From Sphingobacteriales bacterium (GTDB lineage: Bacteria; Bacteroidota; Bacteroidia; Sphingobacteriales; Sphingobacteriaceae): a stretch of DNA of 47,554 nt. The position numbers and the translations under genes were made by a program. The stretch is from assembly GCA_015654985.1 (NCBI GenBank), contig JAATFW010000084.1, positions 1 to 47,554 of the forward strand. Direction: 5' to 3'. How positions within the stretch are numbered: position 1 is the first letter of the stretch; each line of letters opens with the position of its first letter. Below, in pieces: positions 12,989-46,624 of this stretch. Under the pieces are notes generated by a model. It did no database searches and had not been told where the DNA came from. It saw only the letters and a list, made by a program, of their open reading frames with translations.

Positions 12989-12991
12989 CTG

Positions 12992-13010: not shown

Positions 13011-13043
13011 ACTCATGTCTGCGTCAATGCAGGCAAGGTAAGT

Positions 13044-14947: not shown

Positions 14948-14964
14948 ATGAAAATGCAACGACA

Positions 14965-16137: not shown

Positions 16138-16144
16138 AGCTGTT

Positions 16145-16882: not shown

Positions 16883-16894
16883 AACTTCTGTTAT

Positions 16895-19427: not shown

Positions 19428-19547
19428 TTTATTCTATTGCTAAGTATATATTTCCTCTATAAAAAGGTTTTCAATGGCAGAGGAGAGATCGATAAAGCGT
19501 AAACACTCATGAACACCTTAAAAATCAAATAATATGGTGAATAAATC

Positions 19548-19598
19548 TACTTTTGGATGCAAATCAATTATATATAAAAGTAAATTTATCTAAGTTTG
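19548..19598 (+). promoter_or_regulatory. Tandem -7 boxes TACTTTTG (19548-19555) and TAAGTTTG (19591-19598), each followed by GATGCA
   Basis: Two exact TAnnTTTG matches 43 bp apart sharing TTTGGATGCA, upstream of the flippase gene. Confidence 0.45.
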
Positions 19599-19661
19599 GA
19601 TGCAGGGACGCCGGCAAGCCGGGTCCATTGATTGAAAACAATAACCAGGGCAGAGATCACA

Positions 19662-26891: not shown

Positions 26892-26904
26892 ATTAATCTG
26901 ATTT

Positions 26905-28116: not shown

Positions 28117-28123
28117 TTTCAAA

Positions 28124-29443
28124 TTATAAAGACCATTTCTTGCTTTTATACCCATAGAAGGCATAAAAGCAGAGGTATATATAGCAGGGTAATAACACCC
28201 AATATGCTTCCCGAAGGCCTGCCAGGTCTGCAAAATGACCATACAGCAACGGAAGAATGGCATTCCCGCTTAAACCCATAATTAAGATAGATGCGCCAAT
28301 TTTTATAAAGCGTCCAAGGCCGTCCAAAGCTAACGGCCATATGCCCGCCCAGATCATCGAATTGGCAAAGCCGAGAAGAACGACGAACCAGATAGAGATG
28401 TCGGCAGTATGCCCCAGAAAGGTTACCGTACCTTCTGAATAGATGATGAGAAACGTAAACACAACACCCAGCATAGTACAAAAGCGTAAAGCGGCCTTTT
28501 GAGTAATGAACCTGGGAATCAGCAGTATCCCCAATAAGTATCCGATAATTGTTGCCGACAGCGTGTAAGAAGGGAATACTTTTGCTTCATACAGGTTAAT
28601 ATCCATCGACCTTGCATATCCAATAATTGTGTCGACAGCAATAACCTGGGAACCGACATGAAGAAAAATGGCCAAAGCGCCAAGTATCAGATGTGGAAAC
28701 TGGAATATATTATGTTTTGCAGAATTCATTTCTGCAGTTTCGGCATTTTCTATATCTGTATTTATTTCCGGAAGCGGGGAATATCTTACCAGCGCTCCCA
28801 GTCCCAAAAGAACAAAGCCTACTATAGTGTACGGAATGATCACTCTTCTGATTAATTCGTCTAATGCCTGGTCTTTCTGTATGCCCTGCATTCTTTCAAG
28901 CAACTCAAAAGTGTGAACGTCTGAAGGTTTTAATATAATCGCGGCAAATAACAAGGGGGCAATAATCCCGGCAAACTTATTACAGATCCCCATAATACTA
29001 AAGCGTTTCGCAGCACTTTCTTTGGGGCCCAGAATGGTTACATATGGATTGGCAGCCGTTTGCAATACAGCCAGACCAACACCTAAAGTAAAAAGTCCGC
29101 TTAGAAATAATTCATACGTGCGGGTTAAAGCCGCAGGGACAAATATGAAAGCGCCGGCTGCCATTATACAGAAGCCAACCATCATTCCCTTTTTGAATCC
29201 TATGGCCTTTAAAAGATAGGATGCCGGGACAGACATTACCAGATAAGAAATGTAAAAGGCAAAGGCAACCAGGTAGGACTGAAAATTAGAAAGCTCGCAG
29301 GCAATCTTAAAGTATGGAATTAAAATAGCATTGATCCAGGTAACAAATCCGAATATAAAAAACAGAATTGCTATGATCGAGATAGAGATCAGATTGTCAC
29401 GTTTACTTAAAGAGCTAATGTCCTGAACTGATATATTCTTCAT
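28124..29443 (-). CDS. Sugar MFS transporter (FucP/NagP-like)
   Basis: FFIFGFVTWINAILIPYFKIACELSNFQSYLVAFAFYISYLVMSVPASYLL. Confidence 0.9.
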   Translation of the reverse strand: MKNISVQDISSLSKRDNLISISIIAILFFIFGFVTWINAILIPYFKIACELSNFQSYLVAFAFYISYLVMSVPASYLLKAIGFKKGMMVGFCIMAAGAFIFVPAALTRTYELFLSGLFTLGVGLAVLQTAANPYVTILGPKESAAKRFSIMGICNKFAGIIAPLLFAAIILKPSDVHTFELLERMQGIQKDQALDELIRRVIIPYTIVGFVLLGLGALVRYSPLPEINTDIENAETAEMNSAKHNIFQFPHLILGALAIFLHVGSQVIAVDTIIGYARSMDINLYEAKVFPSYTLSATIIGYLLGILLIPRFITQKAALRFCTMLGVVFTFLIIYSEGTVTFLGHTADISIWFVVLLGFANSMIWAGIWPLALDGLGRFIKIGASILIMGLSGNAILPLLYGHFADLAGLREAYWVLLPCYIYLCFYAFYGYKSKKWSL

Positions 29444-29467: not shown

Positions 29468-31021
29468 TTAGTTTCGGTCCCGGGATAAGCGGTTATAAAG
29501 AATTTTAATCTTTGCATTTCTTAATTCGTTTTCCTGTTCCAATTCGGCAAGATGGAATGAATTGCGGTTCAGTTCAATAAAACGCTGGTTGATGGCTCCC
29601 ACAGGAAGGGATTCGAGGCTCTTTAAGACCGCAGGAACCTGTGCAGTAGTAAAAGAAGCGGAATTAACCCGGGCTTCTATATCCATATAGGATAAATAAA
29701 GCTTTCTGATATCCGCCATCAACTGATAATGAGAAAATTCTTCTTTATTTCTCAAAGGCTTCAGGCTGTGAAGAACAGTGGCTGCCTGAACGGCACTATC
29801 AAGCACCTGCCGGATACTTACACCTGGCTTACTCACAACTCCCTGATTAACCTCATAGGGGGCGGCACTCAATGCCTTCCAGAATTGCTGAGACTGTTCC
29901 TTACTAAAGCCATATTTATCCTGAGCATATTTAAATATAAACGCCTCAACCGGTAAAGGAGCAGAAGAGGCGAGACTTTCACAAAAAGCGCTGATAAGCA
30001 TATTAAATCCCGTTACCGGATATACATGGCGTATGGCATACAGATCGATAATATCTGTTGGGGTGTCGAAAACAGGCGAATATTCGCCGGAGGTAGACCA
30101 GGATGTCATGATGATCCCCTTGTATCCCAGCTTCCTGGCAACAGGAATAAAATCATGAATATTATCAAAATGTTTCTTCCATTGCGCCAGAAAATAATTA
30201 TCGGGATGGCTTCGTATTGAGGGAGCCCCCCAGATTTCATATCCGCTTTCAAGAAGTTTCTGATGATTTCCGAAGCGGTCCAGGTCCCAGCCATAGTTCC
30301 AGTCTACAAAAACTGTTTCCTTTGGTAAAAGGTGTATGGCGTCGGGGTATTTAATAGCAATATCGGCCCAGAGTACAGGTCGCTTTCCGAGCTTAATTAC
30401 CAAATCGCACAGCATTTTGATATGGTCAATATAAAGCCGGGAATTACCCGCTTCCAGCGCTCTTTTCCTGCATTTTTCACAATGCCCCAATAACCGTGTT
30501 TCGTCTCCGCCGATATGGATAAAACGGGAAGAATGGGTAGAGGTAAGGTCAGAAAATAAGTTATAGAATAGTTCCCTGTTCCCCTCAGTTTCAAGAGGGC
30601 AAACCTGGGAAAAATCCTTTGTGTCTTCGCGCAGCGCTGCATATTTATAGTTTCTGAGAATGTATTCTACATGTCCGAAACTTTGCTGCAAAGGAATGAC
30701 CTCAATACCCAAAGACTTGCAATAAGACGTAAACGAGCGTACTTCTTCACGCGAATAGGCATAGCGGTTCGGGATCAGCGGCTGATCTTTATATGGATAG
30801 GAAGCTTCCCATTCCATTACCAGGGTATTGATCCCATTTTTGCTTAATTGTAAAGCAAAATTCCTTAACGCCGCCATGGTCATCACCTGTATCCGGAGAT
30901 CCAAATGAAAGCCCCTGATATTAAAAGGTTCATTACTCTTCGGAACTGTTTGTGATTTAACAGATGAAGTAAAGAACAGGCATAATAACAGCCAATGAAG
31001 AAAGTACTTTTTTTGTATCAT
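29468..31021 (-). CDS. GH20-type beta-N-acetylhexosaminidase
   Basis: FNIRGFHLDLRI, IPLQQSFGHVEYILR, RFIHIGGDETRLLGHCEKC (GGDE catalytic pair), PVLWADIAIKYP; signal peptide. Confidence 0.85.
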   Translation of the reverse strand: MIQKKYFLHWLLLCLFFTSSVKSQTVPKSNEPFNIRGFHLDLRIQVMTMAALRNFALQLSKNGINTLVMEWEASYPYKDQPLIPNRYAYSREEVRSFTSYCKSLGIEVIPLQQSFGHVEYILRNYKYAALREDTKDFSQVCPLETEGNRELFYNLFSDLTSTHSSRFIHIGGDETRLLGHCEKCRKRALEAGNSRLYIDHIKMLCDLVIKLGKRPVLWADIAIKYPDAIHLLPKETVFVDWNYGWDLDRFGNHQKLLESGYEIWGAPSIRSHPDNYFLAQWKKHFDNIHDFIPVARKLGYKGIIMTSWSTSGEYSPVFDTPTDIIDLYAIRHVYPVTGFNMLISAFCESLASSAPLPVEAFIFKYAQDKYGFSKEQSQQFWKALSAAPYEVNQGVVSKPGVSIRQVLDSAVQAATVLHSLKPLRNKEEFSHYQLMADIRKLYLSYMDIEARVNSASFTTAQVPAVLKSLESLPVGAINQRFIELNRNSFHLAELEQENELRNAKIKILYNRLSRDRN

Positions 31022-31049: not shown

Positions 31050-31059
31050 TGCGCGGGCA
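31050..31059. promoter_or_regulatory. Putative operator half-match TGCGCGGGCA upstream of GH20 operon
   Basis: Core match to GTGYNCGNRCAC; centre 22 bp from the operator at 31071. Confidence 0.4.
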
Positions 31060-31070
31060 ACTCAGCAGCC

Positions 31071-31082
31071 GTGCGCGGACAC
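31071..31082. promoter_or_regulatory. Putative LacI-family operator GTGCGCGGACAC upstream of GH20 operon
   Basis: Near-palindrome with central CG; matches the susC-upstream sites; preceded on the minus strand by -7-like TATTTTCG. Confidence 0.55.
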
Positions 31083-31117
31083 GAAAATAAGTAAAAAAAA
31101 GCATTTTTGAATTTCTT

Positions 31118-33256
31118 TTAATCTGTTCTTTCAATTCCCAGAACTTTTGCCTCGTAGATATCAGGAATCGTTATCGTTATTCCTTTCTCAATCAATTCTT
31201 TTCCCTGATAGCTTCCAACAATTTTACCATCTTCAGGAGAATACAGCCTGTACTTTACATCCTTATCAACCAAAGGCATCTCAAAAGTCCTCGTATTTTC
31301 TAATGAACCATTGCGATAGAAAAAAAGAACACCTCCCTGCTTTTCTTTATTAAATTTATAACAGCCATCCCAATTACTCATCGTTGCCCTCGGAAAAATA
31401 TCTGACGTTTGTGTAAACCGGGAAAACTGATATTTCTTATCCATCATTTTAAACCAGGAATTCCATTTGGAGTACCACATTTTAGTATCCGCAGTCAGAT
31501 TCCGCGGATCACCTACTAAAATCGGTTTACCCGACACCAGGGACATATAGGTGTATTTATAATTTTTAAGCACGGCGGGATTTGATGCGGATGTATACAT
31601 CTGTTGATTTCCTATCAGACTGGTAGCTGCGGGAATTACACGGGCCCTGTCATACGACATCTGACGGATACTAACCGGTCCCTCGGGAGGATCTGCCTCA
31701 TAATTAGTAAGCCAGTCGTAATCCGCGTGTTGTATCAGGGCAAAATCACTGACATAATATTCGCCCCATACTTCATAGGTACAGTCAATCAGAAGATCAG
31801 GGAAGTCCTTGTGCAGCTCATCAAAAAGTTTCATTGCACGTTCATAGATGGCATAAAATGAACTTGCGCGATCACTATAAATTTTCCCCTCTGATCCATA
31901 ATCTCCTTTTTTATCAAAATCAAGTACATATGCTGAGTTTGCAATTGTAAGGTCCAGTTTTACATAAGCCAGTCTGTTTTCCCTGACAAGATGCTTTATA
32001 CCTTTTAAAATATAATCATAATATCCTGATCCTAATGACATGGTATAACGGTCTTTTGTATCGCCATGTAAATCTACAGGCTTTCCATCGCTCCCCAGAA
32101 CCAGCCACTCAGGATGCTGCTGTACTATTTTACTTTTTGCATCGACAGTTGCCAGGCTAATCCATAAACCAGGCAGCATCCCTTTTCCCCTGATATAATC
32201 GCACACCGGCTTCAATCCGCCGGGAAATTTTTTCCTGTCGGCTTCCAGATCACCCCATTTAGACATCCACCCGTCGTCAAGAATAACAAGGTCTGTGCCT
32301 GTTCCATGGAGGCCATCGGCTATATCATACATCAGGGTATCACTTATATTAGTTCTGAAAGGGTACCAGGTGTTATAGAACGCAAAGGGGATTTCCTTTT
32401 TCTCAAAAAGCCTTACCCCTAGTTTCTTTCTGATAAAACCGGCAAAGTCTCCTTCGAAAGCATCTTCAACTTTCTTTGACTGAACCAGAAATATAAATGT
32501 TCCCGGACTGGAAAACGCCTCTCCGGGGGCAATCAGTTTCTTAAAAGGGTAATGATCGTTTATACCGGTGAGTCCTATGGAAATCTGTTCATTATGGGTG
32601 TACACCTCGGTTCTTTTCAAAACGCCGGGTGCTTCATTTCCAAGAATGAAACCGTCTTTGGCTACTGTATTATATACGTAAACGGCAGCATCGTGATGAT
32701 CCCCCCGGAAAGGGCGCCATGAAAGGTGAGTCCCATAGTGACTATATATATCAGTCTTCCAGGTATTAAGGGGAACGAGATTGAGACGTTCTACCTCTAA
32801 ACCGGTAACAGCAACCGGAATACCTGAATGATTTCTAATGCTGATCTTCTTACGCACAACGGGAAATTCATCATATATCTCATAAACTAATTCGACATCC
32901 ACTTTTTCAGCCACGGTGCCTTTCTTTCCTTTCAGAAAAACAGTAAGCTTCTGATCCCCGTTGGCGGACACTAAATAGTCATGCTTCACATAAGCAAACG
33001 AAGAATTATTTACATCCGCTCGTTTTTCATCCTTCTGAAGAGAAAAAAAGAACTCTTCTGTTCCCTGCCTGCTGTAATCTTCTCCTGTTATTAAACTTTT
33101 GAAACTACTGGTATAAAACGTATCTGCTTCAATTGTAAATTGTCTGCATAAATACTTATTCTTTATAGCAATAGAATCTTTTGCCTGAGCCTGAACGGCA
33201 ACTGCTAATCCCAGAAAAAAGAAAATGAAGTTTCTCTTCTTTTCCATTGATTCCAC
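31118..33256 (-). CDS. GH36-like alpha-galactosidase / alpha-N-acetylgalactosaminidase-type glycosidase
   Basis: PFAFYNTWYPFRTNISDTLMYDIADGLHGTGTDLVILDDGWMSKWGDLEADRKKFPGGLKPVCDYIRGKGMLPGLWIS, RLAYVKLDLTIANS; N-terminal beta-sandwich. Confidence 0.8.
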   Translation of the reverse strand: MESMEKKRNFIFFFLGLAVAVQAQAKDSIAIKNKYLCRQFTIEADTFYTSSFKSLITGEDYSRQGTEEFFFSLQKDEKRADVNNSSFAYVKHDYLVSANGDQKLTVFLKGKKGTVAEKVDVELVYEIYDEFPVVRKKISIRNHSGIPVAVTGLEVERLNLVPLNTWKTDIYSHYGTHLSWRPFRGDHHDAAVYVYNTVAKDGFILGNEAPGVLKRTEVYTHNEQISIGLTGINDHYPFKKLIAPGEAFSSPGTFIFLVQSKKVEDAFEGDFAGFIRKKLGVRLFEKKEIPFAFYNTWYPFRTNISDTLMYDIADGLHGTGTDLVILDDGWMSKWGDLEADRKKFPGGLKPVCDYIRGKGMLPGLWISLATVDAKSKIVQQHPEWLVLGSDGKPVDLHGDTKDRYTMSLGSGYYDYILKGIKHLVRENRLAYVKLDLTIANSAYVLDFDKKGDYGSEGKIYSDRASSFYAIYERAMKLFDELHKDFPDLLIDCTYEVWGEYYVSDFALIQHADYDWLTNYEADPPEGPVSIRQMSYDRARVIPAATSLIGNQQMYTSASNPAVLKNYKYTYMSLVSGKPILVGDPRNLTADTKMWYSKWNSWFKMMDKKYQFSRFTQTSDIFPRATMSNWDGCYKFNKEKQGGVLFFYRNGSLENTRTFEMPLVDKDVKYRLYSPEDGKIVGSYQGKELIEKGITITIPDIYEAKVLGIERTD

Positions 33257-33258
33257 TG

Positions 33259-34329
33259 CTAATCATTACTTAAATAATAGTTTACGTTTTCTTTAGTGAC
33301 AACATCAAGAGGGAGAAATTTTATCTCAGGTACTTCTTTTTTAAATATTAAATGGTCAACCAGATGATGGATGCTCCAGTATCCCTGTCCTTTAGGGTTT
33401 TGATTAATAAGAAAACTAATGATCTTTTTATTCAGGAAGTGAACATTTGCCGGAATCAGGTCATATCCTATAATCTTTATTGATGTAATATGACGCTGCT
33501 CTAAATATCTTGCGATCATATAACTCCTCGATGTTGTTACATAAATGCCTTTGAGATTATCAGATTTCTCTAAAACATCGTCCATCTGTTTCATAAAGGA
33601 AGAGGAATCATTTCCCTGCAGGGCCACACTGTTAAGGGTGAATTTTTGCGATAAATTATTCTGAATAAAATAGTTTTGAAAGCCCTGCTCCTTTTTAATC
33701 AGATGCCTGGAGTTACTAATGTCAGCATTTATATGGGCGACAAGCAGCGTACAGGGATCATCTTGTCCGTAATGCATCAGACTGGCAGCCAAAAGGCCGC
33801 TTTGATAAGAGTCCTGCCCTATATAACTAAGTGGATTATATTCATTTATCTGAGTATTAAAAATAACAAATGGGATCTTTAAGGTGTTCCATTCTTCAAA
33901 GAAAGGGAGCGTTTCTTTATAAAACAAAGGAGATACAATAATTCCGTCGGGGCAAAGTTTTGACACACGCCGCGCCTGTTCAATATATGAACCGGGATCA
34001 TCCTGATCAAAAAGAAACAGAGATACAATAACTCCGTACTGCTTTAGATCCTTTTCTGCCTGTTCTATTCCAAGTTTTGATTCAAACCAATAAGATTCGC
34101 TGGGGTAATCGGGAATCAAGGCAGCAATAACATAAGTTTTCTTTGTCCCCAAAGCTCTTGCGCTGTAGTTCGGCTCGTAATTGGTATCCTTTATGATCTT
34201 TAAAACTCTTTCTTTTACTTTTAAAGACACACCTCCCCGGTTATGTATAACCCGGTCGACAGTTCCGGTAGACACTCTTGCTTTTACTGCTATATCTTTA
34301 ATTCTTATAAGTTTATTAGTCAATTCCAT
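33259..34329 (-). CDS. LacI-family transcriptional regulator
   Basis: N-terminal HTH IRIKDIAVKARVSTGTVDRVIHNRGGVSLKVKERVLKIIKDTNYEPNYSARALG plus periplasmic-binding-like domain. Confidence 0.95.
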   Translation of the reverse strand: MELTNKLIRIKDIAVKARVSTGTVDRVIHNRGGVSLKVKERVLKIIKDTNYEPNYSARALGTKKTYVIAALIPDYPSESYWFESKLGIEQAEKDLKQYGVIVSLFLFDQDDPGSYIEQARRVSKLCPDGIIVSPLFYKETLPFFEEWNTLKIPFVIFNTQINEYNPLSYIGQDSYQSGLLAASLMHYGQDDPCTLLVAHINADISNSRHLIKKEQGFQNYFIQNNLSQKFTLNSVALQGNDSSSFMKQMDDVLEKSDNLKGIYVTTSRSYMIARYLEQRHITSIKIIGYDLIPANVHFLNKKIISFLINQNPKGQGYWSIHHLVDHLIFKKEVPEIKFLPLDVVTKENVNYYLSND

Positions 34330-34380
34330 TTGATTTTATGATGCTCTTAAGATAACAACACTAAAGTAATTTAATTTTTA

Positions 34381-34388
34381 CAAAGGTA
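34381..34388 (-). promoter_or_regulatory. -7 box TACCTTTG upstream of the LacI-GH36 pair
   Basis: Reverse complement of CAAAGGTA; exact TAnnTTTG match about 50 nt before the LacI ATG. Confidence 0.4.
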
Positions 34389-34403
34389 GATTGTTATAAC
34401 TCA

Positions 34404-36188
34404 TTATTGTATTTTCTCGATTACAGGCGTCAGAATATCCTTTGCTTTACCCTGTGTTTCGAGTTGATGCATGATTGCATAAATTGCGCCGTTCCAGCCC
34501 TGATTAATTTTTCCGGGCTTACCGGTAGCCGTATTTATATGCTCATAATAAGTCCCTTCCCTTTCAAAATCCATTTTTCCTCTCCAGATTAAAAGTTTAT
34601 CAGCACCGGGGATACCATGTGCATAGGCAGTAATTAAAAACAGCATGTCATATAAATAATAAGAACCACCATTGGCATACTCGCCGAAAGGGACATTCCA
34701 GTGAGGAGATTTATATCCGGGGATATCAAACTTTTCATTTGGGGCATAGCTTCCATCAGGCATACAAACGATCTTGAAGCCATTTTCAGTCTTTGCAACT
34801 GCAGATACTTTTTGAAAGTGAAGCCTCACCTGCTCCCTTTCCAAAAGAGGGGTATTAAAAATGAGTATATGCAATAGATCACCGATCATAGCATCTACCG
34901 CCACCAAATCTTTCTTTTGTTCGCTTAGGGGGAAATATCCGCCTTCATTATAAAAAAGGCCCCGATATGCCTTTGCAGCGTCCTGCCAGGTTACAGAAGG
35001 TTTTAATCCTAATTCCTGAGCAGCATGGAGAGCTACCACCAGAAGCCCCTGATTATAGGTAACAACATCATCATCGGTAAACATACACAGATCGAACCAC
35101 GACTTAAAGTTCTTTCTTCCAGATTGCTCATCAAAAGCCAGGTATCTATTGTTAACTATATGTTTTTCTATATATGCAAGACTTTTGGCAGCGCCTTCCA
35201 TATCTGGTTTCCCGCCGCTTTTACTAGTTCTGTAAGCCCAGATAAGTGCAAAAATGGGTCTTTCCGCACCGGGTGTTTGTTGACGGGCTTCATTCAGATA
35301 ACACTGTTCTTCCATTGCGGGAGGTAAAACCATAGACTGCCAGAAGGCATCTCTTGAGTACTGTTTGTTACAATAGTCAATACCGGCCACTACCCAATAT
35401 TTGCTGGCCTTAAGTTCATTTGTACGATAAAGCATATAATTAGTGGCAAATGCGGTCGCCCCAAACTTGCTGTTTATATTCCCCCATCGCCGGGCAATAG
35501 CCCTGAATACATCCTGCCGCATTGCACCAATATTCCGGGCATTACTATGCATTATTACTCCATTAAATTCATGATCTCGACCGGGGGAAACCTGATGATA
35601 GAAAGGCCGGACGATTATTGTATCTCCAACCTGTGTTCCGGGCTTCAGGCCATTGTCGCCACTGGCAATCTGCATTTTCTTTTCCTGGGGCTTGAAATAT
35701 TGTGTCGTGTAATTATTATAAAAAGCAGGGGCATCACTAAATGCGATATCCCATCCTTTCCCTTTATTTAAAGCCATCATTGGAACAGCCTGCCTTGGAA
35801 GAGAATCAAAGAAATAGTTTCCCGGATCGTGTACGCTTTGTCTGTATATCTCTTCTTTGGCTACCGTGCCATTAAAATTGAGGGCAGTGCCTTTATCATA
35901 ATTAAACTCCAGGGCGAGGAATAAACTGTCCTTCGATTTTGAGCCTGCCTTTATCTTATAGTATAAATAGCCGTTCTGAGGTTCCAGTGTTATTTCGAAG
36001 TTAAAATTCCCCACCTGTTTTTTTATTACGGTCTTCTTATCAGGCCATGAAGCGAGACTTGCGGCCGTTATTGATTTACCCGGCTGTTCTGCTTTAAACA
36101 GTATTTTTGTCTGTGAACTTGCAGAAATAGCAGATATACAAGCTATAAGAAAAGTAAGTACAACAAATCCTCGTTTTTTGTGATGCAT
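34404..36188 (-). CDS. Secreted six-hairpin (alpha/alpha toroid) glycosidase-like protein
   Basis: Signal peptide MHHKKRGFVVLTFLIACISAISASSQ (ATG 36188); NQGLLVVALHAAQELG, YRGLFYNEGGYFPLSE, INQGWNGAIYAIMHQLE. Family number not assignable by eye. Confidence 0.65.
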   Translation of the reverse strand: MHHKKRGFVVLTFLIACISAISASSQTKILFKAEQPGKSITAASLASWPDKKTVIKKQVGNFNFEITLEPQNGYLYYKIKAGSKSKDSLFLALEFNYDKGTALNFNGTVAKEEIYRQSVHDPGNYFFDSLPRQAVPMMALNKGKGWDIAFSDAPAFYNNYTTQYFKPQEKKMQIASGDNGLKPGTQVGDTIIVRPFYHQVSPGRDHEFNGVIMHSNARNIGAMRQDVFRAIARRWGNINSKFGATAFATNYMLYRTNELKASKYWVVAGIDYCNKQYSRDAFWQSMVLPPAMEEQCYLNEARQQTPGAERPIFALIWAYRTSKSGGKPDMEGAAKSLAYIEKHIVNNRYLAFDEQSGRKNFKSWFDLCMFTDDDVVTYNQGLLVVALHAAQELGLKPSVTWQDAAKAYRGLFYNEGGYFPLSEQKKDLVAVDAMIGDLLHILIFNTPLLEREQVRLHFQKVSAVAKTENGFKIVCMPDGSYAPNEKFDIPGYKSPHWNVPFGEYANGGSYYLYDMLFLITAYAHGIPGADKLLIWRGKMDFEREGTYYEHINTATGKPGKINQGWNGAIYAIMHQLETQGKAKDILTPVIEKIQ

Positions 36189-36231
36189 AAAAACCAATTT
36201 ATCAGAGTAACCAAATGATATCTTTAACCTT

Positions 36232-36398
36232 TTAATAATATTTAAAAACTTTACCACCGGCCATTACTTCCTGTGTTTTTTGTTTCCAGCCCGAAAGTTC
36301 CTTACCGTTGAAAAGATACATCCAGCCATTACTTTGTTGTGCTTCTAACGAAGAGACAAGACAAAGGCAATGATTGAGAAATATAATTTAAGATTCAT
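36232..36398 (-). pseudogene. N-terminal remnant of a DUF1080 (3-keto-disaccharide hydrolase) gene, frameshifted and truncated
   Basis: Minus strand: ATG 36398 gives signal peptide MNLKLYFSIIAFVLSLR*; in the shifted frame ..SSLEAQQSNGWMYLFNGKELSGWKQKTQEVMAGGKVFKYY*, which carries the DUF1080 hallmark LFNGKELSGWK. Confidence 0.75.
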
Positions 36399-36413
36399 CC
36401 TTTTTTTAAAGTA

Positions 36414-38621
36414 TTAATTTAATGACAGTTTTACACTCCTTAGATCTGCAGAATTTGGCCCGATCATAATTGAAAAGTCTCCCGGTTCTGTGATCCATTT
36501 TCCGTCTTTCCAGAACTTAAGCATTTCCGGCGTTACCGGAAAAGACAGCTTTTTAGATTCACCGGCTTGCAAACTGACGCGTTGAAAGCCTCTTAATTCT
36601 TTTAAAGACCTGGCCAGAGAAGAAATTTCATCTCTGATGTAAAGCTGCACAATTTCTTCACCGGCTAGTTTTCCGGTATTTTTTACTTCAACCTCAGCCA
36701 CAACATGCTCACCTTTAGCAATTACTTTTTTTGATAAAGCAACCGGTGAATAGCTGAAAGTTGTATAACTCAATCCGTATCCGAAAGGATAGGTAGGATC
36801 AGAAGAAGAATTCCAAAGCTCCCTTGACCTTCCGGGCGCCAGAGTATTGTAAAAGGCCGGAACCTGGCCAACGTTGCGGGGATAGGTAACGGTAAGTTTT
36901 CCGGATGGATTGATATTACCAAAGATGGCATCTGAAACAGCAGTACCGGTTTCCTGCCCGAGGAACCACCCATCTAATATAGCGGGGATATTATCTTTCG
37001 CCCACTGAATGGCGGCAGGCCTGCCGTGAAGCAGCACCAGTATCACAGGCTTTCCTGTAGCGGCAATTGCCTGCATTAGTTTTTCCTGTTCGCCCGGCAG
37101 GGTTATATCGTCACGATCTACATTTTCCATCACTGTTTTATCATCATCTCCCAGAACAAGTACACAGGCATCCGCCTGCTTTACTACAGAAACAGCCTCA
37201 AGGATCTGCCGGCTGTCAGGATTCTGAATATCTGTCCCCTTAGCATATAATATTTTTACGTCAGGGCCGGCAGCTTTTTGAATACCCTGCCTCACTGTTA
37301 CAAAATATTTTGGCTGTTGTGTAGAATAGGTCCCCAGACGGACTGTGTCGGCATTAGGGCCGATAACCGCAATTGTTTTAAACTGGCTTTTTTTTAATGG
37401 AAGAAGGCTCTCTTTATTCTTAAGCAGAATAATACTTTTTCTGGCCGCTTCAAGGGCCAGTTGATTGTGCGATACTGTGTTCAATACCTCCTGATAGTTC
37501 TTCCTGGGATTAGATAAAGAGCCATCAATTTGTGAGAAAAAAACATCTGCATTTACATCGGCGTTCTTTGTTTCTTTCTGCAACTGCGACATTTCTCTCC
37601 CCATAGGATTTTCTTCATTTTCAAGATGCAATGCAAACTTAATTTCCAGGACTTTTCTCACTGCATTATCCAGCAAAGTTAAAGGAACATGGTTATTTTT
37701 TACTGCATTTACTAACGGGGGGCCGTACATTCTTTTGTCAGCCCACGTTTGTTTAAAGGCTAATTCTGTATGAACTCCGGCCTCTAAAGCTTTTCTGATC
37801 GTTTCTTCCCTGCTTCCGGTTGCTTTTAACCGTTCCCGGACCCACCTGATATCGTTATTATCGGAAACCACCAGTCCTTCAAAACCATATTCTTTTCTAA
37901 GAATATCATTTAAAATATATGAATTAATATGGCACGGTACGCCGTTAAGAGTATGATGTGCCGGCATTACAGAACCCACGTGAGCTTCCTGTACTGCGGC
38001 TTTAAAAGGGACGAGATGAATTTCATGCAAACTTCTTTCCGAAATCTCTACTGCAGCTCCGTTCGCCCCGAGTAAGGGCTCGCTGTCAGCGACAAAATGT
38101 TTAGCTGTTGCAATAACGTGGTTCTGATCAAAACGTTCCTTCCCCCGGCCCTGCAAACCATTTATAAAAGCAACACCTATCCTGCTGACCAGGTAAGGAT
38201 CTTCTGAATAGCCTTCTTCGAAACGTCCCCATCTTGCATCGCGAACCACTCCCAGCATAGGGGTAAAGCAATGATGAATACCCAAAGCCCTCGCTTCCCT
38301 GGCAATAACAGAAGACACTTTTTCTACCAAAGAAGTATCCCAAGAACTGGCAAGCGCGATGGCTTGCGGAAAGGAAGTGGCACCGGCAAAAACTACGCCA
38401 TGCAAACATTCACCTGCCTGCATATGCGGTATGTTTAATCTTTTATTCGCATTTGGATAAAAGGAGGCCAACTGATGCGCCTTTTCTTCAAGGGACATCC
38501 GGCCCAGCAATTGTTCGATCTTAATTTTATCTTTTGAGGATAAAGGGATATAGTCCGGCTGCCGGGCGAAACCCTTTAAAAACAGAACTAAAAACAGAAC
38601 AATTGTAAACAGCCTTTTCAT
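36414..38621 (-). CDS. Glycoside hydrolase family 3 (beta-glucosidase-like)
   Basis: GFEGLVVSDNNDIRW (nucleophile region), GECLHGVVFAGATSFPQAIALASSWD, C-terminal fibronectin III-like YPFGYGLSYTTFSYS. Confidence 0.94.
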   Translation of the reverse strand: MKRLFTIVLFLVLFLKGFARQPDYIPLSSKDKIKIEQLLGRMSLEEKAHQLASFYPNANKRLNIPHMQAGECLHGVVFAGATSFPQAIALASSWDTSLVEKVSSVIAREARALGIHHCFTPMLGVVRDARWGRFEEGYSEDPYLVSRIGVAFINGLQGRGKERFDQNHVIATAKHFVADSEPLLGANGAAVEISERSLHEIHLVPFKAAVQEAHVGSVMPAHHTLNGVPCHINSYILNDILRKEYGFEGLVVSDNNDIRWVRERLKATGSREETIRKALEAGVHTELAFKQTWADKRMYGPPLVNAVKNNHVPLTLLDNAVRKVLEIKFALHLENEENPMGREMSQLQKETKNADVNADVFFSQIDGSLSNPRKNYQEVLNTVSHNQLALEAARKSIILLKNKESLLPLKKSQFKTIAVIGPNADTVRLGTYSTQQPKYFVTVRQGIQKAAGPDVKILYAKGTDIQNPDSRQILEAVSVVKQADACVLVLGDDDKTVMENVDRDDITLPGEQEKLMQAIAATGKPVILVLLHGRPAAIQWAKDNIPAILDGWFLGQETGTAVSDAIFGNINPSGKLTVTYPRNVGQVPAFYNTLAPGRSRELWNSSSDPTYPFGYGLSYTTFSYSPVALSKKVIAKGEHVVAEVEVKNTGKLAGEEIVQLYIRDEISSLARSLKELRGFQRVSLQAGESKKLSFPVTPEMLKFWKDGKWITEPGDFSIMIGPNSADLRSVKLSLN

Positions 38622-38637
38622 ATACTTTTATGAGAAT

Positions 38638-38678
38638 ATTACAGACAGGGAATCCTTAAGCAATTCCCTGTCTGTAAT
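38638..38678. terminator. 16-bp perfect hairpin between susD and GH3 (attenuator / processing hairpin)
   Basis: ATTACAGACAGGGAAT (38638-38653), 9-nt loop, ATTCCCTGTCTGTAAT (38663-38678); no U-tract on either side. Confidence 0.6.
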
Positions 38679-38711
38679 AAGTGGATCAATCAGATAAACG
38701 TCGCTTAATAG

Positions 38712-40361
38712 TTAATTATACCCGGGATTCTGTGGAATAACGGCTCCCGAATTCAATTGAATTGCATCCAATGGAATCGGGAACAGCACATTCTCCTGCT
38801 TCATTGTAGGGCCAATCTGTGGGTTATACTTTACCGTTCGCTCATACAATTTCCCTACACGGTTCAAAGTGATCCTTCTTTCTTCCTCCAGGAATAATTC
38901 CCTTGCACGCTCATCCAGGATATAGTCCATTGTTACATCAGCAGGAGCAACAGGTGTGGCATGTGCCCTGTTCCTTACAACATTGATATCGTCTGCCGCC
39001 TTTTGAAGATCGCCCTTATTCATATAAGCTTCGGCCCTTAACAAATAAGTTTCCGACAGCCGCATCTTATAGAGGTCCGTGTAAGTCCTTCCTGTGGTTA
39101 AACCAGCCTCATAGACTCCTTCCACTTTCCTCCATTGCGGAATTAATTGCGTGATCGTATCAATTGGCACTGCATGGCTTGCACTAAAGGACAATACTTT
39201 ACCATACCATTTTGTTGATTCCGGATTATTACCTGTATAGATCCTGAGGATATTATATTTTGAATTCCTGATATCGTTTTTATCATTCCAGATATCGTAG
39301 CGCACAAAGTTATTGGTCGCACACCATCCCACTCCCCTGCCTATCGTATCTATAACTATCATTGGATTAGGATTTGATTCACCGGGAGTTGGGTTCGGCT
39401 CGGGAATGCTGAAATAATTGGCACCCCAGCATCTTAACATATGATTTCCTCTCGCCCCGTAATCACTGCCACCGCCGGTAGTCGTATTCTCATATTGTAA
39501 AGCCCAAATGGTTTCTGTATTAGCTGCGAGGTTCACGTTTCTAAACCTGAAAAGGTCGCGAAATACATCGGAAGGCTCACTGGCATAGTTGCCGAAGCGT
39601 TGCATCATTAAAGCATATCCTCCGTTGATCACTTTTGTAGCGCTTGCTATAGCAGCGTCGTTATCTCCAATTTCGAGATATACTGCTGTCAACAGATGAT
39701 TTGCAGCCCCCTGCGAAATCCGGCCGGCGGCAGCAACGCTGTTCTTTGTTGGAAGCCATTGCGCTGCAAACTCCAGATCTTCCTTTACGCTGTTCAACAC
39801 CTCACTTTTGGGGGTACGAACAAAGTCATACTTCGGGGAAGTATAGAATTCCGTAACCAAAGGAACATCACCAAATAGATTCACCAGGCAATAATGGGCA
39901 TATGCCCTGAAAAACCTTGCTTCGCCTATTACTGCGTTCTTCTGGGCCTCGGTTGTAAAAACACTGGCATTTTCTTCAGCTTTCTTTATAATCAGATTTG
40001 CTTTGGGAAGGTAGCCGGTATACATTACATTCCAAAAATAGGCAGGAATTACATGCTGTGAATTCAACTGATCATAATCATAGATCGACGCAGAAGCAGT
40101 GTAGCCACCAAGACGGCCTTCATCTGTTCCTACGGTAAGCATGTAATAATAGGGATTATCGCTTCCTGAAATTTCATCACGCGCTACCTTGTGTAAACCT
40201 GCTATGGCGGCATCAAATGCACCGGCTGTGTTAAAAGCATTTTCAGGGCTGAGTTTATCCAAAGGAACTTCAGTCAGTTCACTTTCTTTACATGAGGTGA
40301 CAACAAATATTGCCAGCAAAAAGCATGAAAGTACTAAATATCTGATTTTCATATTCTTCAA
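38712..40361 (-). CDS. RagB/SusD family nutrient-binding outer membrane lipoprotein
   Basis: Lipobox SCKESELTEVPLDKLSPENAF, GEARFFRAYAHYCLVNLFGDVPLVTE, C-terminal FPIPLDAIQLN..IPQNPGYN. Confidence 0.96.
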   Translation of the reverse strand: MKNMKIRYLVLSCFLLAIFVVTSCKESELTEVPLDKLSPENAFNTAGAFDAAIAGLHKVARDEISGSDNPYYYMLTVGTDEGRLGGYTASASIYDYDQLNSQHVIPAYFWNVMYTGYLPKANLIIKKAEENASVFTTEAQKNAVIGEARFFRAYAHYCLVNLFGDVPLVTEFYTSPKYDFVRTPKSEVLNSVKEDLEFAAQWLPTKNSVAAAGRISQGAANHLLTAVYLEIGDNDAAIASATKVINGGYALMMQRFGNYASEPSDVFRDLFRFRNVNLAANTETIWALQYENTTTGGGSDYGARGNHMLRCWGANYFSIPEPNPTPGESNPNPMIVIDTIGRGVGWCATNNFVRYDIWNDKNDIRNSKYNILRIYTGNNPESTKWYGKVLSFSASHAVPIDTITQLIPQWRKVEGVYEAGLTTGRTYTDLYKMRLSETYLLRAEAYMNKGDLQKAADDINVVRNRAHATPVAPADVTMDYILDERARELFLEEERRITLNRVGKLYERTVKYNPQIGPTMKQENVLFPIPLDAIQLNSGAVIPQNPGYN

Positions 40362-40362
40362 A

Positions 40363-43300
40363 TTAAAAAGTAAGATTTAAACCTGCAACAAAAGTCCGGA
40401 TTATAGGGTATCCGCCACGAACCTGTGACTGTGTATAAGCATTTATTACAGTAGTCATTCCTTCAGGATCCCAGCCAGACCAGGGTGTAAATACAAATGG
40501 ATTTTTGGCACTGGCATATAAACTTAACCGGTCAACCGACAATTTCTTAAGTACAGATTTGGGGATCTGATAATTTAGAGTGATGTCCTGAATACGGATA
40601 AAATTCGTCTTTTCATAAAATCTAAGGCCGCTTAAACCACTTGAATAAGCCAGGGACGGGCGCTTGTTGTTCCGGTTATCCGGGGTCCACCAGCCACCGT
40701 CAATATCAATAATATTAACAGCCTGATTAACCCCGGTTTCCATATAGATGGGATTGATCAACTGATTTTCAGAAATTGAACCCTGGGCTGTATTGACAAA
40801 GACCGATAGCGTAAAATCTTTATACCGGAATTCGTTACGCAGGCCCGCCCGCCACTTTGGTTCGGTCTGTCCAAGAATAGTGCGGTCGTTTGCATCTATC
40901 GTTCCATTTCCATCCTGGTCTACGATACGCATATCCCCAGCCTTAAAACCGATGGGGATGTTATCATCAACCTGCCATACCCCATCGAATTGATAATTAT
41001 AAACAGAAGTAATATTTTCTCCAATGAACAAAGAACTTGTCGGAATATCCTGCGTACCCCTCAAACTCAGAATTTTATTGGTATTAACGGAAAAATTACC
41101 ATTAACAGCCCATCCGAAGCTATCACTCTTAATTGGATTATAATTAAGAGTTAATTCAAGTCCCTGATTCCTCATAGAGGCAAGGTTAGAATTGATAGTG
41201 CTAAAACCGTTCATTGAAGGAAGAAGTTGCTGATACAACAGATCATATGTCTTACGGTTGTAATAATCTAAGGTGCCTGAAAGCTTTCCTTTAAAAGTTG
41301 TAAAATCCAGGCCCAGATCCAGCTCGTCTGTTGATTCCCATTGAAGGTTAGCATTAGGCATACTGGAAGGATAAATGGTTACAGTACTTATTCCCCCGTC
41401 TCCAAACACATAATTAGATCGCTGGATTTGGGCGAGAGAGGCATATGGATCTACGCCCTGATTTCCAATGGTTCCATATGAGACTCTAAATTTCAGAAAA
41501 TCCAGCCAGCTGCTGTTTTTTAAGAACTTTTCCTCAGATGCGATCCATGCTACAGCGGCAGAGGGAAAGTTACCGTATTTATGATCAGCTCCAAACGCGG
41601 AATAACCATCCCGTCTTATTGTCGCTGTTAACAGATACCTGTTCAGGAAACTGTAATTGGCCCTGAACATCGCACCCTGATTCACATATTTATTGGTAAT
41701 ATCAGTATTAGTTTGAGTTGTTCCCAAACCGAACTGATCATATCCAAGTGCCATATTGAAAAAATCGGAAGCAGTGGAAGTATTGTTGGTACGGCTGTCT
41801 TTTTGCTGGGTCAATACTGCAGTCAAAGCCAGAGAATGTTCCTTATTCTCTCCAAGCTCTACTTTATAATCCAGTTGATTTTCAATTAAGTTAGTAGCGA
41901 TATCACTTCTTACCCTGTTTGCGGTAGCATTTTTTGAACTTGGCCTGACATTAGCCGGTAAATAAAGATCTAAAATACCGATCGGATAAGTAAAATCTTC
42001 ACCCCTACCGTAACTTAGGGTAGACCCGAACCTGATATTATACGTTAGACCTTTAAGAAAAGGGAAGTCAACTTTTGCATACATCACTCCATTCAATGCA
42101 TTTGAAATACTGGAATTTGGATTTAGCGTAGTTAACAGAGGATTGGCTACGGTGGTTAAAGTGTATGCCGGGTATGCGGTGAGAGATCCGTCCTCATTAT
42201 ATATTTTCCCGTAGGGCGTCATCCATTGTGCATTAAATGTATTAGCTGGTGTACCCGAATTGTCTCTTTTGGTAAAGCCGCTGTTTAAACCGATAGTTAA
42301 CCATTTATTCAAATTCGATTCAAGGTTGGCCCGGAGGCTTATTCTTTTGAAATTATCGTTCACTACAACACCCTGCTGTTTGGTGAATGCCCCGGACAGA
42401 AAATAATTAACCTTATCTGTTTTCTGGGACACGCTCAACTGGATATTTTCAGATGGCGCATCCTGCTTGATAAGCTCCTGTGGGTCTACAGTTTTGCCTG
42501 CAGCGTATTGTTCTGCCTCATAGACTGTGAGGTAGCTGGCTACATTTTCCATAGTATATTTACCGGGATCCCATACACCGGAACTTTTATAATCAGGATC
42601 ATTGAAACGTTTATAATCCACCAGCTTTTCGAGATATCGTTCAGGGCTCAGAAAGTTTATCTTATTAATGTAATCGGAAGATCCATAATAGGAGGAGAAA
42701 GCAAACTTAGGCTTATCAGAAGAGCCCTTCTTGGTAGTAATTAAAATTACCCCTTTTGCTGCACGGGAACCATAAATAGCAAGGGCACTCGCATCTTTTA
42801 ATACTTCCAGGCTGGCAATATCGTCAGGTGGTATATCGGCAAGGTTCCCGGGAAAAATAATTCCGTCCAATACTATCATAGGTGAGCCTAAGCTAGAAAT
42901 ACTTGCAATCCCCCTGATATAGATCCCTCCTGTTGTTCCCGGCCGTGTTCCGGGTGTGACACTTAAGCCGGCAACGCTCCCTGACAGTGCCTGTGTAACG
43001 TTAATATTCGGAATATCCGCTACCTGACTGAGGTTCACCGAAGCGACAGCACCTGTAATATCTCTTCTTTTCTGTGTACCGTAACCCACTACCACTACTT
43101 CATTCAGCTGGCTTGAAGACTCTCCCATTGTTACATTAATAACAGTGCGCCCGCCTATTTTAATACTATGAGGATTAAATCCTATATAAGTAAAAGTAAG
43201 GGTTGCCTGGGCATCTGTATTAATTGAATAATTTCCATTTAGATCTGTACTGGTGCCACCCCCTGCGGAGCTTTTAATGCTTACTCCGATTAATGCGTTC

Positions 43301-43476
43301 CCCTTGTTATCAGTAACCTTACCTTTAACAATAACAGGAGGAATGCCGGCTTTCGCCTTCAGTGAAATACCGGTTGCTAAAATTAGCGCCAGAATAACAG
43401 AAGAGGTAAGCAGCAGCATTTTCTTTGCAGGCCTTAAGTTTAAAGAACTGCATTTGAGTAGTTTGGTTCTCATCAT
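40363..43476 (-). CDS. SusC/RagA family TonB-linked outer membrane protein
   Basis: Carboxypeptidase-like domain VKGKVTDNKGNALIGVSIKSS, NEVVVVGYGTQKRRDITGAVASV plug, ASALAIYGSRAAKGVILITTKKG. Confidence 0.97.
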   Translation of the reverse strand: MMRTKLLKCSSLNLRPAKKMLLLTSSVILALILATGISLKAKAGIPPVIVKGKVTDNKGNALIGVSIKSSAGGGTSTDLNGNYSINTDAQATLTFTYIGFNPHSIKIGGRTVINVTMGESSSQLNEVVVVGYGTQKRRDITGAVASVNLSQVADIPNINVTQALSGSVAGLSVTPGTRPGTTGGIYIRGIASISSLGSPMIVLDGIIFPGNLADIPPDDIASLEVLKDASALAIYGSRAAKGVILITTKKGSSDKPKFAFSSYYGSSDYINKINFLSPERYLEKLVDYKRFNDPDYKSSGVWDPGKYTMENVASYLTVYEAEQYAAGKTVDPQELIKQDAPSENIQLSVSQKTDKVNYFLSGAFTKQQGVVVNDNFKRISLRANLESNLNKWLTIGLNSGFTKRDNSGTPANTFNAQWMTPYGKIYNEDGSLTAYPAYTLTTVANPLLTTLNPNSSISNALNGVMYAKVDFPFLKGLTYNIRFGSTLSYGRGEDFTYPIGILDLYLPANVRPSSKNATANRVRSDIATNLIENQLDYKVELGENKEHSLALTAVLTQQKDSRTNNTSTASDFFNMALGYDQFGLGTTQTNTDITNKYVNQGAMFRANYSFLNRYLLTATIRRDGYSAFGADHKYGNFPSAAVAWIASEEKFLKNSSWLDFLKFRVSYGTIGNQGVDPYASLAQIQRSNYVFGDGGISTVTIYPSSMPNANLQWESTDELDLGLDFTTFKGKLSGTLDYYNRKTYDLLYQQLLPSMNGFSTINSNLASMRNQGLELTLNYNPIKSDSFGWAVNGNFSVNTNKILSLRGTQDIPTSSLFIGENITSVYNYQFDGVWQVDDNIPIGFKAGDMRIVDQDGNGTIDANDRTILGQTEPKWRAGLRNEFRYKDFTLSVFVNTAQGSISENQLINPIYMETGVNQAVNIIDIDGGWWTPDNRNNKRPSLAYSSGLSGLRFYEKTNFIRIQDITLNYQIPKSVLKKLSVDRLSLYASAKNPFVFTPWSGWDPEGMTTVINAYTQSQVRGGYPIIRTFVAGLNLTF

Positions 43477-43701
43477 ACTTCATTAATTAATTTGGTTGAT
43501 TAATATTAAGTTGGTCGATCAGGATTAGCATATAATCCTTCTCCTGTTAAAATTTGAATGATCTCTAATTTATCATACTCCTCCAGCTTTTACGGTTGAA
43601 ATTCGCTTTTGCAACTCCTTCCAGGTGCAGACATCTTAAATATCCGGAATAATAAAACTTCCAGCAACCCGAATGTATGCGTAAAACAACATAACAATAC
43701 C

Positions 43702-43713
43702 GTGTCCGAACAC
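43702..43713. promoter_or_regulatory. Putative LacI-family operator GTGTCCGAACAC
   Basis: Near-perfect palindrome with central CG; abuts the susC -7 box (minus-strand TATATTTG, 43720-43713). Confidence 0.6.
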
Positions 43714-43720
43714 AAATATA
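43713..43720 (-). promoter_or_regulatory. susC -7 box TATATTTG
   Basis: Reverse complement of CAAATATA; exact TAnnTTTG. Expected TSS falls inside the operator and leaves a leader of about 230 nt. Confidence 0.5.
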
Positions 43721-43733
43721 TAAAAACATTTAC

Positions 43734-43745
43734 GTGTGCGAGCAC
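43734..43745. promoter_or_regulatory. Putative LacI-family operator GTGTGCGAGCAC
   Basis: Second site; centre 32 bp from the first (about three helical turns). Confidence 0.55.
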
Positions 43746-43921
43746 AATTTTAAAAAAAATCTTTTTTTAACAATATTTTGTCGGTAAGTTTGGCTTTAAC
43801 AGCAATCAGGGCCTCTTATTAGTGCTCATAATATAAAAATTAACGCGTTTGAAGCTATTTATTAACAACATAACAACAAACAAATAGAATATTTAATACT
43901 TTTTAAAAAAAACTCGCTAAA

Positions 43922-46624
43922 GTGAAAAAAAATCTCATTTCCCTTCCTCTTTTGATTGCAATTACGGCTTTTGGACAGGACAAAGCCAGGGAAAGACATC
44001 CTATCGATATAGATGCAATCCGTCAGACAGAGCTAACCGGCGACGTCGGGCTTCGCCCAACTGTCATGTCTGTTCCTGCAAGCGAGTCCGAAACTGAGGC
44101 TTTTATAAAGAAATTCCCATCCAAAAAATACCTTACCTTCCCGGAAAGCCGTGATAATTCTATTCGTCTTTTAGATGGCATTCCTGAAAAATGGTTAACA
44201 TACAGAGAGAGGCAATTAACGTCATATAAAGACAAAGGCCGTCCCGGCGAGTACTTTGTCTTTCAGGTGGGAGTATACGCATCGTCTGTACCTTTAAAAA
44301 ATATCCGGATAAGTTTCGTTTCTACCGGCACAGGAAGTGAATTAATAAAAGGGCTTACATGCTTCAATTCTGAGGGAACATCCTTTCGGGGACTGAACTT
44401 CAAAAAGCAACTGAACCTGGAGCACAAAAAGGTATTGCCCTTATGGTTCGGGATCCAGCTTCCTAATGAAGCTAACCGGTTATTTAATGGACAGATTATC
44501 ATAAAGCCGGAAGGGTTACCGGCAACTTCTGTTGCTGTTACAATTACTATTGAAGGCAGTTCGATAGAAAATCATGGATATAATAACGAACAACAGCTAT
44601 CCAGGCTCGCCTGGCTCAATTCACGATTAGCCATTGACAATGATATTACTGCCGGGTTTAAACAGATTGTCCGCAATGAAAAAACGATATCCATATTGGG
44701 AAGGACCATTACTCTTTCTGATCAGGGACTCCCGGCCAACATTCAAACGTTTTTTGATGCAAATAACCAGAACCTTCTTCCCTCAGGGCAGCCCCTTCTT
44801 TCCAGGCCTGTAACTTTTATTGTTGAAGAGAACAACGGCAAACTAATGAAATTTAAATCAGGAAAGATTAAGTTTAAAGACCATTATCCGGGAAATACAG
44901 AATGGGAAACTACATTAAGCAATGAGCAGGTGCAGATCCGTCTGTCGGCAAAAGCCGAATATGATGGATTTATAGGATACAGTGCCCTTGTTACCTCACT
45001 TAAAGATATTGCAGTTCAGGATATCCGCCTTGAGATTCCACTCCGGCCTGAAAAAGCGATCTATATGATGGGCCTGGATAAAGAGGGCGGGTTCAGCCCG
45101 AAAGAATGGCAATGGAAGTGGGATGTTATTAATAAAAACCAGGATGAGGTATGGATGGGCGCCGTAAACGGGGGCTTGAAACTTAAGCTAAAGGGGAAAA
45201 ATTACCATAGGCAATTAATTAATATTTACTATCCTTTCGGACCGCTAAATGAGCCGGAATCATGGGGCAACAATAAAAAGGGCGGCGTTGATATAAGAAA
45301 TAATGATAAATATACTCTTATAAAAGCTTTCTCAGGTAACAGGACACTTTTAAAGGGCCAGACTTATCAATTTGATTTTGATCTCCTTGTAACGCCTTTT
45401 AAGCTCATTAATAAAGATATTCAGTTTAACGACAGATATTATCACTCAGACATTGATACCAGTCTTAATTTCATCAAAACCGCATCCGAACATGGCGCGA
45501 ACATTATTAATGTCCATCACAAGAAAGATATTTATCCATTTATTAATTATCCTTATATCGCCGAAAATATTCCTGATTTAAAAGCTTTCATTGACAGTTC
45601 CCATATAAAACATCTTAAAACAAAGCTCTATTATACCACAAGGGAATTAACAGTTAACGCACCGGAAATATGGGCAATGCGTGCCCTGAACAACGAAATT
45701 CTTTATCCAGGCCCGGGAATGGCAACAAGAACACTGGTCAATCCAAATGGGGTACATCCCTGGCTTGGTGAAAACTTTAAAGAAGACTTCATTCCTGCAT
45801 GGGTTGCTACTTTCACTCATGGTAAATATAAAGGACGACAGGATCTGGCTGTATTAACCACTCCCGACTCAAGACTGAACAACTTTTATGTTGAAGGCCT
45901 TGACTGGATGTGTAAGAACCTTCAGATAGATGGAATTTATATTGATGATCTTGCTCTCGACCGTGAAACCATGCGCAGAACAAGGAAGGTTTTAGACAGG
46001 GAACGCCCGGGAGCAAGGATAGATATGCATACCTGGAACCACTATAACCAGTATGCGAAATGGGCGTCATCTCTAAATCTGTATATGGACCTTCTGCCTT
46101 ACATAGATCAGCTATGGGTTGGGGAAGCGCGTGACTATGATCGCTCTCCCGACTACTGGCTTATTGAAACCAGCGGAATCCCGTTTGGATTAACTTCACA
46201 AATGCTGAATAAAGGCGGCAATAAATGGCGGGGAATGGTATTTGGAATCACCAACCGCTTTGGATGGCACAGCGCTCCAACGCCCGGATACATCTGGGGA
46301 TTCTGGGATGCATATAACATAGAAAAAAAACAAATGATAGGGTTCTGGGACAATTCGATCCCGGTCAGGAGCGACAATCCCGATACTAAGGCGACAATAT
46401 ATACAGAGAAAGATGAAGTAATCATTGCCCTTGCAAACTGGACGGACAAGCCTCAGAAATGCCGGCTCGAAATTAACTGGAAGGCACTTAATCTTTCCCC
46501 GGACGATGTTACAACTGAAGTACCCTATATAAAAGAATATCAGGAGGGCGGTAAGATTGATATTCTTAATGAAATTGACCTCGAAGGGGAGAAAGGCTTA
46601 CTTATCGTTCTTAAAAGGAAATAA
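43922..46624 (+). CDS. DUF6067 / GH123_N-like secreted glycoside hydrolase-type protein
   Basis: 900 aa; VWMGAVNGGLKLKLKGKNYHRQLINIYYPFGPLNEPESWGNNKKGG, IDGIYIDDLALDRETMRRTRKVLDRERPGARIDMHTWNHYNQ; GTG start with a short signal peptide. Confidence 0.7.
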   Translation: MKKNLISLPLLIAITAFGQDKARERHPIDIDAIRQTELTGDVGLRPTVMSVPASESETEAFIKKFPSKKYLTFPESRDNSIRLLDGIPEKWLTYRERQLTSYKDKGRPGEYFVFQVGVYASSVPLKNIRISFVSTGTGSELIKGLTCFNSEGTSFRGLNFKKQLNLEHKKVLPLWFGIQLPNEANRLFNGQIIIKPEGLPATSVAVTITIEGSSIENHGYNNEQQLSRLAWLNSRLAIDNDITAGFKQIVRNEKTISILGRTITLSDQGLPANIQTFFDANNQNLLPSGQPLLSRPVTFIVEENNGKLMKFKSGKIKFKDHYPGNTEWETTLSNEQVQIRLSAKAEYDGFIGYSALVTSLKDIAVQDIRLEIPLRPEKAIYMMGLDKEGGFSPKEWQWKWDVINKNQDEVWMGAVNGGLKLKLKGKNYHRQLINIYYPFGPLNEPESWGNNKKGGVDIRNNDKYTLIKAFSGNRTLLKGQTYQFDFDLLVTPFKLINKDIQFNDRYYHSDIDTSLNFIKTASEHGANIINVHHKKDIYPFINYPYIAENIPDLKAFIDSSHIKHLKTKLYYTTRELTVNAPEIWAMRALNNEILYPGPGMATRTLVNPNGVHPWLGENFKEDFIPAWVATFTHGKYKGRQDLAVLTTPDSRLNNFYVEGLDWMCKNLQIDGIYIDDLALDRETMRRTRKVLDRERPGARIDMHTWNHYNQYAKWASSLNLYMDLLPYIDQLWVGEARDYDRSPDYWLIETSGIPFGLTSQMLNKGGNKWRGMVFGITNRFGWHSAPTPGYIWGFWDAYNIEKKQMIGFWDNSIPVRSDNPDTKATIYTEKDEVIIALANWTDKPQKCRLEINWKALNLSPDDVTTEVPYIKEYQEGGKIDILNEIDLEGEKGLLIVLKRK

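Follow-up and report, generated by a model that had tools for sequence, protein, structure and literature searches.

The window analysed here, a 47,554-nucleotide contig stretch from a Sphingobacteriales bacterium, carries a PUL whose gene for a LacI-family repressor lies between two promoters. Its genes are the following, with the basis of each assignment in brackets.

21186-23117, minus strand: GH97 (Pfam)
23176-26091, minus strand: GH106 (Pfam)
26118-26954, minus strand: nagB-like (Pfam Glucosamine_iso)
26905-28263, minus strand: nagA (TIGR00221, 290 bits, above the cut-off of 226)
28124-29443, minus strand: MFS sugar transporter, NagP-like (NF046060, 379 bits, below the cut-off of 625)
29468-31021, minus strand: GH20, first gene downstream of O3 (Pfam)
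31118-33256, minus strand: melibiase, alpha-galactosidase or alpha-GalNAc-type (Pfam Melibiase; PDB alpha-galactosidases)
33259-34329, minus strand: LacI-family repressor, proposed reader of the operators (Pfam LacI HTH and Peripla_BP_4)
34404-36257, minus strand: 617-aa protein without an assigned family (nothing matched in Pfam, NCBIfam or PDB)
36414-38621, minus strand: GH3 (Pfam)
38712-40361, minus strand: susD (Pfam SusD_RagB)
40363-43476, minus strand: susC, first gene of the operon predicted to be controlled by O1/O2 (TIGR04056, 782 bits)
43922-46624, plus strand: GH123_N (DUF6067) protein, divergent from susC (Pfam PF19543, 943 bits)

The gene run GH20-MFS-nagA-nagB-GH106-GH97 and the position of lacI, between O3 on one side and O1/O2 on the other, had been proposed from the letters alone; the Pfam and NCBIfam matches confirm the former and the coordinates the latter. 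No HTCS or ECF/anti-sigma gene was found among the annotated PUL proteins, on a contig that ends at 47554, so that a further regulator may lie beyond it. The suggestion that LacI replaces HTCS or ECF control is fair for the visible locus. There are, however, earlier reports of lacI genes within PULs and of LacI sugar regulons in Bacteroides (PMC5306329, PMC3878776).

Among 300 other genomes of the family, a single one encodes a good relative of the 617-aa protein (L144, 46%); that relative belongs to another gene cluster, with neither lacI nor operator in the 20 kb read. The protein may represent a new family of enzymes or binding proteins. Elsewhere on the plus strand, 12918-21143 holds a surface-glycan cluster (NeuB, DegT aminotransferase, GNAT acetyltransferase, MptE-like protein and flippase), read as nonulosonic (sialic-like) acid synthesis. 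A partial secreted ORF at the contig end (46655-47554, plus strand), whose 300 available residues match nothing in Pfam, resembles by eye the start of a beta-helix protein.

An exact-match search of the window located the palindromes GTGCGCGGACAC at 31071-31082, GTGTCCGAACAC at 43702-43713 and GTGTGCGAGCAC at 43734-43745, precisely where the sequence-only reading had placed three strong sites. With the adjoining promoter elements they are arranged as follows.

43734-43745, minus strand: predicted operator O1, exact match, GTGCTCGCACAC on the minus strand, family matrix score 20.7, upstream of the susC -7 box
43713-43720, minus strand: -7 box of the susC promoter, TATATTTG, TAnnTTTG consensus
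43702-43713, minus strand: predicted operator O2, exact match, GTGTTCGGACAC on the minus strand, family matrix score 16.9
31082-31089, minus strand: -7-like box of the GH20 promoter, TATTTTCG, one mismatch to TAnnTTTG, offset -7 from O3
31071-31082, minus strand: predicted operator O3, exact match, GTGTCCGCGCAC on the minus strand, family matrix score 13.3

All three palindromes are intergenic. O3, which has the lowest score of the three, lies about 55 bp from the GH20 start, in front of GH20-MFS-nagA-nagB-GH106-GH97. A weaker fourth site had been claimed at 31050 (TGCGCGGGCA). Its letters are present, a 12-mer with two mismatches, both outermost, 22 bp from O3, but its matrix score is below -2, against 13.3, 16.9 and 20.7 for the others, and no relative showed a 22-bp pair; it was therefore rejected as a second GH20 operator. 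The idea of paired operators thus stands at susC, where the 32-bp centre spacing is right and recurs elsewhere, but lacks support at GH20.

Allowing up to one mismatch, the window contains five matches to the palindrome where shuffling predicts 1.43. Exact GTGYNCGNRCAC occurs five times in the own genome (assembly of 4.73 Mb, 87.9% complete), three of these inside this PUL. Because 4.73 Mb hold only five exact matches, about 0.05 would be expected per 47.5-kb window, and three matches have a Poisson P of order 1e-5. Genome-wide, the frequency of the 12-mer is not above its control; in the own genome the reversed pattern gives four matches. A genome-wide scan had been proposed as a check: the exact matches cluster here, but their total is about equal to that of the control. 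A genome-wide regulon in the own genome was accordingly rejected, and the function of the motif therefore rests on local context. Another exact genomic match (C283:1716) falls within an ORF. The match at C324:4032 was considered as a third target and rejected; it has poor flanks (score 5.9), sits between fecR and a SusC gene and probably does not belong to this regulon. In two different genera (L061:4032 and L095:17662) an identical AAGCCGGAAGTGCTCGAACAC string precedes susC, after fecR in L061, and may be an unrelated conserved element.

Loci for comparison were chosen solely by similarity of their LacI protein (66 relatives on genome contigs, plus others from whole genomes, with up to 20 kb fetched for each), so that the motif played no part in their selection. 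Together with the window they contain 99 exact motifs, 85 of them intergenic in DNA of which only 12% is intergenic, and several of the other 14 merely touch an over-extended ORF start. After deduplication, 77 intergenic motifs remain in 70 loci against 0.25 expected under a first-order Markov model; permuted control palindromes give zero or one intergenic match in the same loci. Phylogenetic footprinting, also proposed beforehand, thus finds the motif recurring near LacI relatives. That the window merely holds three look-alike palindromes in AT-rich promoter DNA would fit a whole-genome count close to its control, but the concentration of three of the five genomic matches in one PUL, all intergenic, and this family-wide footprint make chance so improbable as to be nearly negligible.

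An unbiased intergenic count ranks GTG...CG...CAC first among the half-site/centre combinations. The second-ranked palindrome, TGT..GC..ACA, was discarded as a separate motif, as it consists largely of the sites already counted, displaced by a single base. The family matrix, which was built from motif matches in the fetched loci with the window left out, so that scores on those fetched sites are not independent, extends the palindrome to TRYGTGTKC|GMACACRYA, with CG as its centre. Even palindromes with a central CG are found in the great majority of LacI-family motifs (Ravcheev et al., PMC4052901), and the earlier proposal of a LacI-type operator agrees with this rule. Two exact operators occur in a partly similar PUL (L084; GH3 68%, GH123 66%). 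In the fetched DNA of about ten relatives, including L087, L088, L093 and the loci from Dyadobacter, no site could be recognised.

The position of the operators relative to the promoter follows a pattern. At susC, TATATTTG ends on the first G of O2, which therefore overlaps the end of the box, and the offsets are -7 from O2 and +25 from O1. The claim that a -7 or -7-like box abuts the operator at both loci holds, with a consensus box at susC and one mismatch at GH20. Offsets were measured with each operator oriented towards its downstream gene, for 79 non-redundant operators: the Bacteroidetes -7 box, TAnnTTTG, is found at -7 in 12 and at +23 to +26 in 20, while all remaining offsets combined give only 12 matches. 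The nominal, redundancy-filtered P values of the two peaks (about 1e-21 and 1e-28) overstate significance because related loci are mutually non-independent; the pattern nonetheless recurs across several families. Operators of the first class start on the last G of the box, and those of the second occupy the DNA upstream of it. About 32 bp separate the two classes, and the susC promoter of the window employs both simultaneously, which explains its 32-bp operator pair. Pairs of 31-32 bp are also present in Rufibacter, Sabulibacter, Adhaeribacter and a Cytophagales bin; pair spacings in other loci are 53-58, 97-100, 104-105 or 115 bp. No clear -33 box was identified. The placement relative to the -7 box points to repression through promoter blocking. 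For the divergent GH123/DUF6067 gene, the best -7 box (TAAGTTTG, 43785-43792) lies about 40 bp from O1, its nearest operator, and control of this gene by O1/O2 is therefore uncertain.

The repressor itself has an N-terminal HTH (PF00356, 50 bits, cut-off 27) and a C-terminal periplasmic-binding-protein-like sugar domain (PF13407, 125 bits; 3gbv, 161 bits). Its recognition helix, VSTGTVDRV, is common to the relatives whose loci carry the motif, and all close members have VSxGTVDRV (VSxGTVDRI in one). An outgroup LacI clade with 36-40% identity has the helix VSIATVDR and loci with GTGTACGTACAC- or GGGTACGTACCC-like sites; the motif changes together with the helix, as expected if the LacI proteins read the motif. 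Members of this clade (L054-L059, L187 and L195) have nagA/nagB or susC as neighbours, together with GTGTACGTACAC-like operators, and read as a sister regulon with shifted operator specificity. Could the sites instead be bound by another factor, or be structural, for example RNA hairpins, and coincide with LacI genes? Palindromic sequences are able to fold into hairpins; in addition, on C324 the fifth genomic match separates fecR from susC, and L095 has a similar site ahead of a susC gene. However, the motif tracks one LacI subfamily across several families and changes with the recognition helix, its central CG is typical of LacI, and the sites lie on or directly against the -7 box, not in the transcript interior, all of which leaves such a coincidence decidedly improbable.

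A more substantial competitor is a second LacI protein of the same genome. This paralogue, on contig C8, is 63% identical to the window LacI, has the same VSTGTVDR helix and adjoins genes for NagB-PIG-L, MFS, an APH-family (NahK-like) kinase and CBM9_2. Its own operator (L042:11096-11117) is degenerate (GTGTGCGCCTACAC), and relatives of the C8 regulator within the genus retain TGTGTGCGCACA or TGTTTGCGCACA. The maximum-likelihood tree places the window LacI in one group with the core regulators of the genus (support 100/95), on a long branch (0.64). On this tree it is a diverged, PUL-borne relative of the predicted core N-acetylhexosamine regulator; the simplest reading would be a duplicate captured by the PUL, the alternative being transfer from an unsampled relative. 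The identical helix and the long branch would both suit a scheme in which O1-O3 are real LacI operators read mainly or jointly by the C8 protein, with the PUL copy redundant or drifted. PUL regulators are normally local, however, this lacI is embedded between the sites, and O1 and O2 are good whereas the operator of C8 itself is degenerate, so that we consider a reading by C8 unlikely. The earlier claim that one repressor co-regulates both halves of the PUL is thus upheld as regards the motif, an operator of this LacI subfamily that overlaps the -7 box with lacI between the promoters, but is weakened by a paralogue with the same helix.

The genes found under the motif in relatives suggest the signal. 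NahK-type kinases come first (13 of 58), followed by SusC (9), CBM9_2 (7), lacI (7), a GalE-like epimerase (5), GH109 (3), GH20 (2) and GH123 (1); NagB-PIG-L also adjoins operators. The kinase scores 255 bits to N-acetylhexosamine 1-kinase, and the epimerase is GalE. NahK, GalE, NagB-PIG-L, GH109, GH123 and GH20 are targets for N-acetylhexosamine uptake and catabolism, and together with SusC they point to an N-acetylhexosamine regulon, with GalNAc probably as its sugar. GH109 and GH123 are N-acetylgalactosaminidase families, which is why GalNAc is favoured; judging from gene content, GalNAc or a derivative would be the effector. A nagA resembling that of the window is common throughout the family, in most cases adjoined by GH20, MFS or nagB. 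The motif is absent from 20 fetched orthologous nag-cassette loci, save for GTGTACGTACAC (outgroup type) and one GTGTGCGTACAC, which adjoins GTGTACGTACAC-type sites. The nag cassette of the window appears to have come under the control of this LacI through acquisition of O3.

Our principal conclusion, which we regard as very probable, is that O1-O3 are operators of the LacI repressor encoded at 33259-34329, a member of an N-acetylhexosamine-responsive subfamily spread over Sphingobacteriaceae and Hymenobacteraceae, and govern the susC and GH20 promoters. The sequence-only reading is thereby borne out in most respects. Without inducer, LacI dimers would occupy O1 and O2, which frame the susC -7 box, as well as O3 on the GH20 -7 box, and so exclude RNA polymerase from both promoters. 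Repression of the susCD/GH3/lacI/melibiase operon and of the GH20/MFS/nagA/nagB/GH106/GH97 operon would be relieved by a sugar set free from the glycan, with GalNAc or one of its phosphorylated forms as the likeliest candidate. As lacI sits in the susC operon, it is probably autoregulated. Somewhat better than even, in our estimate, is the chance that the wider picture also holds: an undescribed regulon in these two families, a two-position rule (operator on the -7 box, or about three helical turns upstream, sometimes both), duplicated regulators captured by PULs and, here, a recruited nag cassette.

Known LacI-family systems provide both parallels and differences. The local sugar regulons of the RegPrecise collection (PMC4052901) likewise combine an HTH and a sugar-binding domain with an even palindrome with central CG, local sugar genes and probable autoregulation, but the collection covers only one group of Bacteroidetes (Bacteroides). 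UxaR, UxuR, KdgR and UxmR of Bacteroides (PMC3878776) are also LacI regulators of sugar catabolism in Bacteroidetes, but control uronate pathways; in that study, N-acetylglucosamine and sialic acid are under the ROK regulator NanR. The xylan PUL of Gramella flava (PMC5306329) similarly has a lacI gene inside a susCD-bearing PUL, where the gene is named without an operator. UxuR2 of Algoriphagus (PMC5507952) is likewise a LacI regulator from Bacteroidetes and has GH109 among the genes of its loci, but was assigned to galacturonate/glucuronate utilisation. The open-access literature yielded neither this operator nor any account of a LacI regulon for N-acetylhexosamines in Sphingobacteriaceae or Hymenobacteraceae. 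The type of switch is ordinary, a LacI-family sugar regulon; this circuit is apparently undescribed, as far as that literature shows.

For mostly environmental Bacteroidetes, in which PUL control is little mapped, the analysis supplies an explicit operator code, together with a rule for where the operator stands with respect to the -7 box. It predicts the inducer class (an N-acetylhexosamine, likely GalNAc) and the target operons in dozens of genomes. The circuit is directly testable, and it would provide a clear case of a core sugar regulator that was apparently copied into a PUL with its operator specificity kept.
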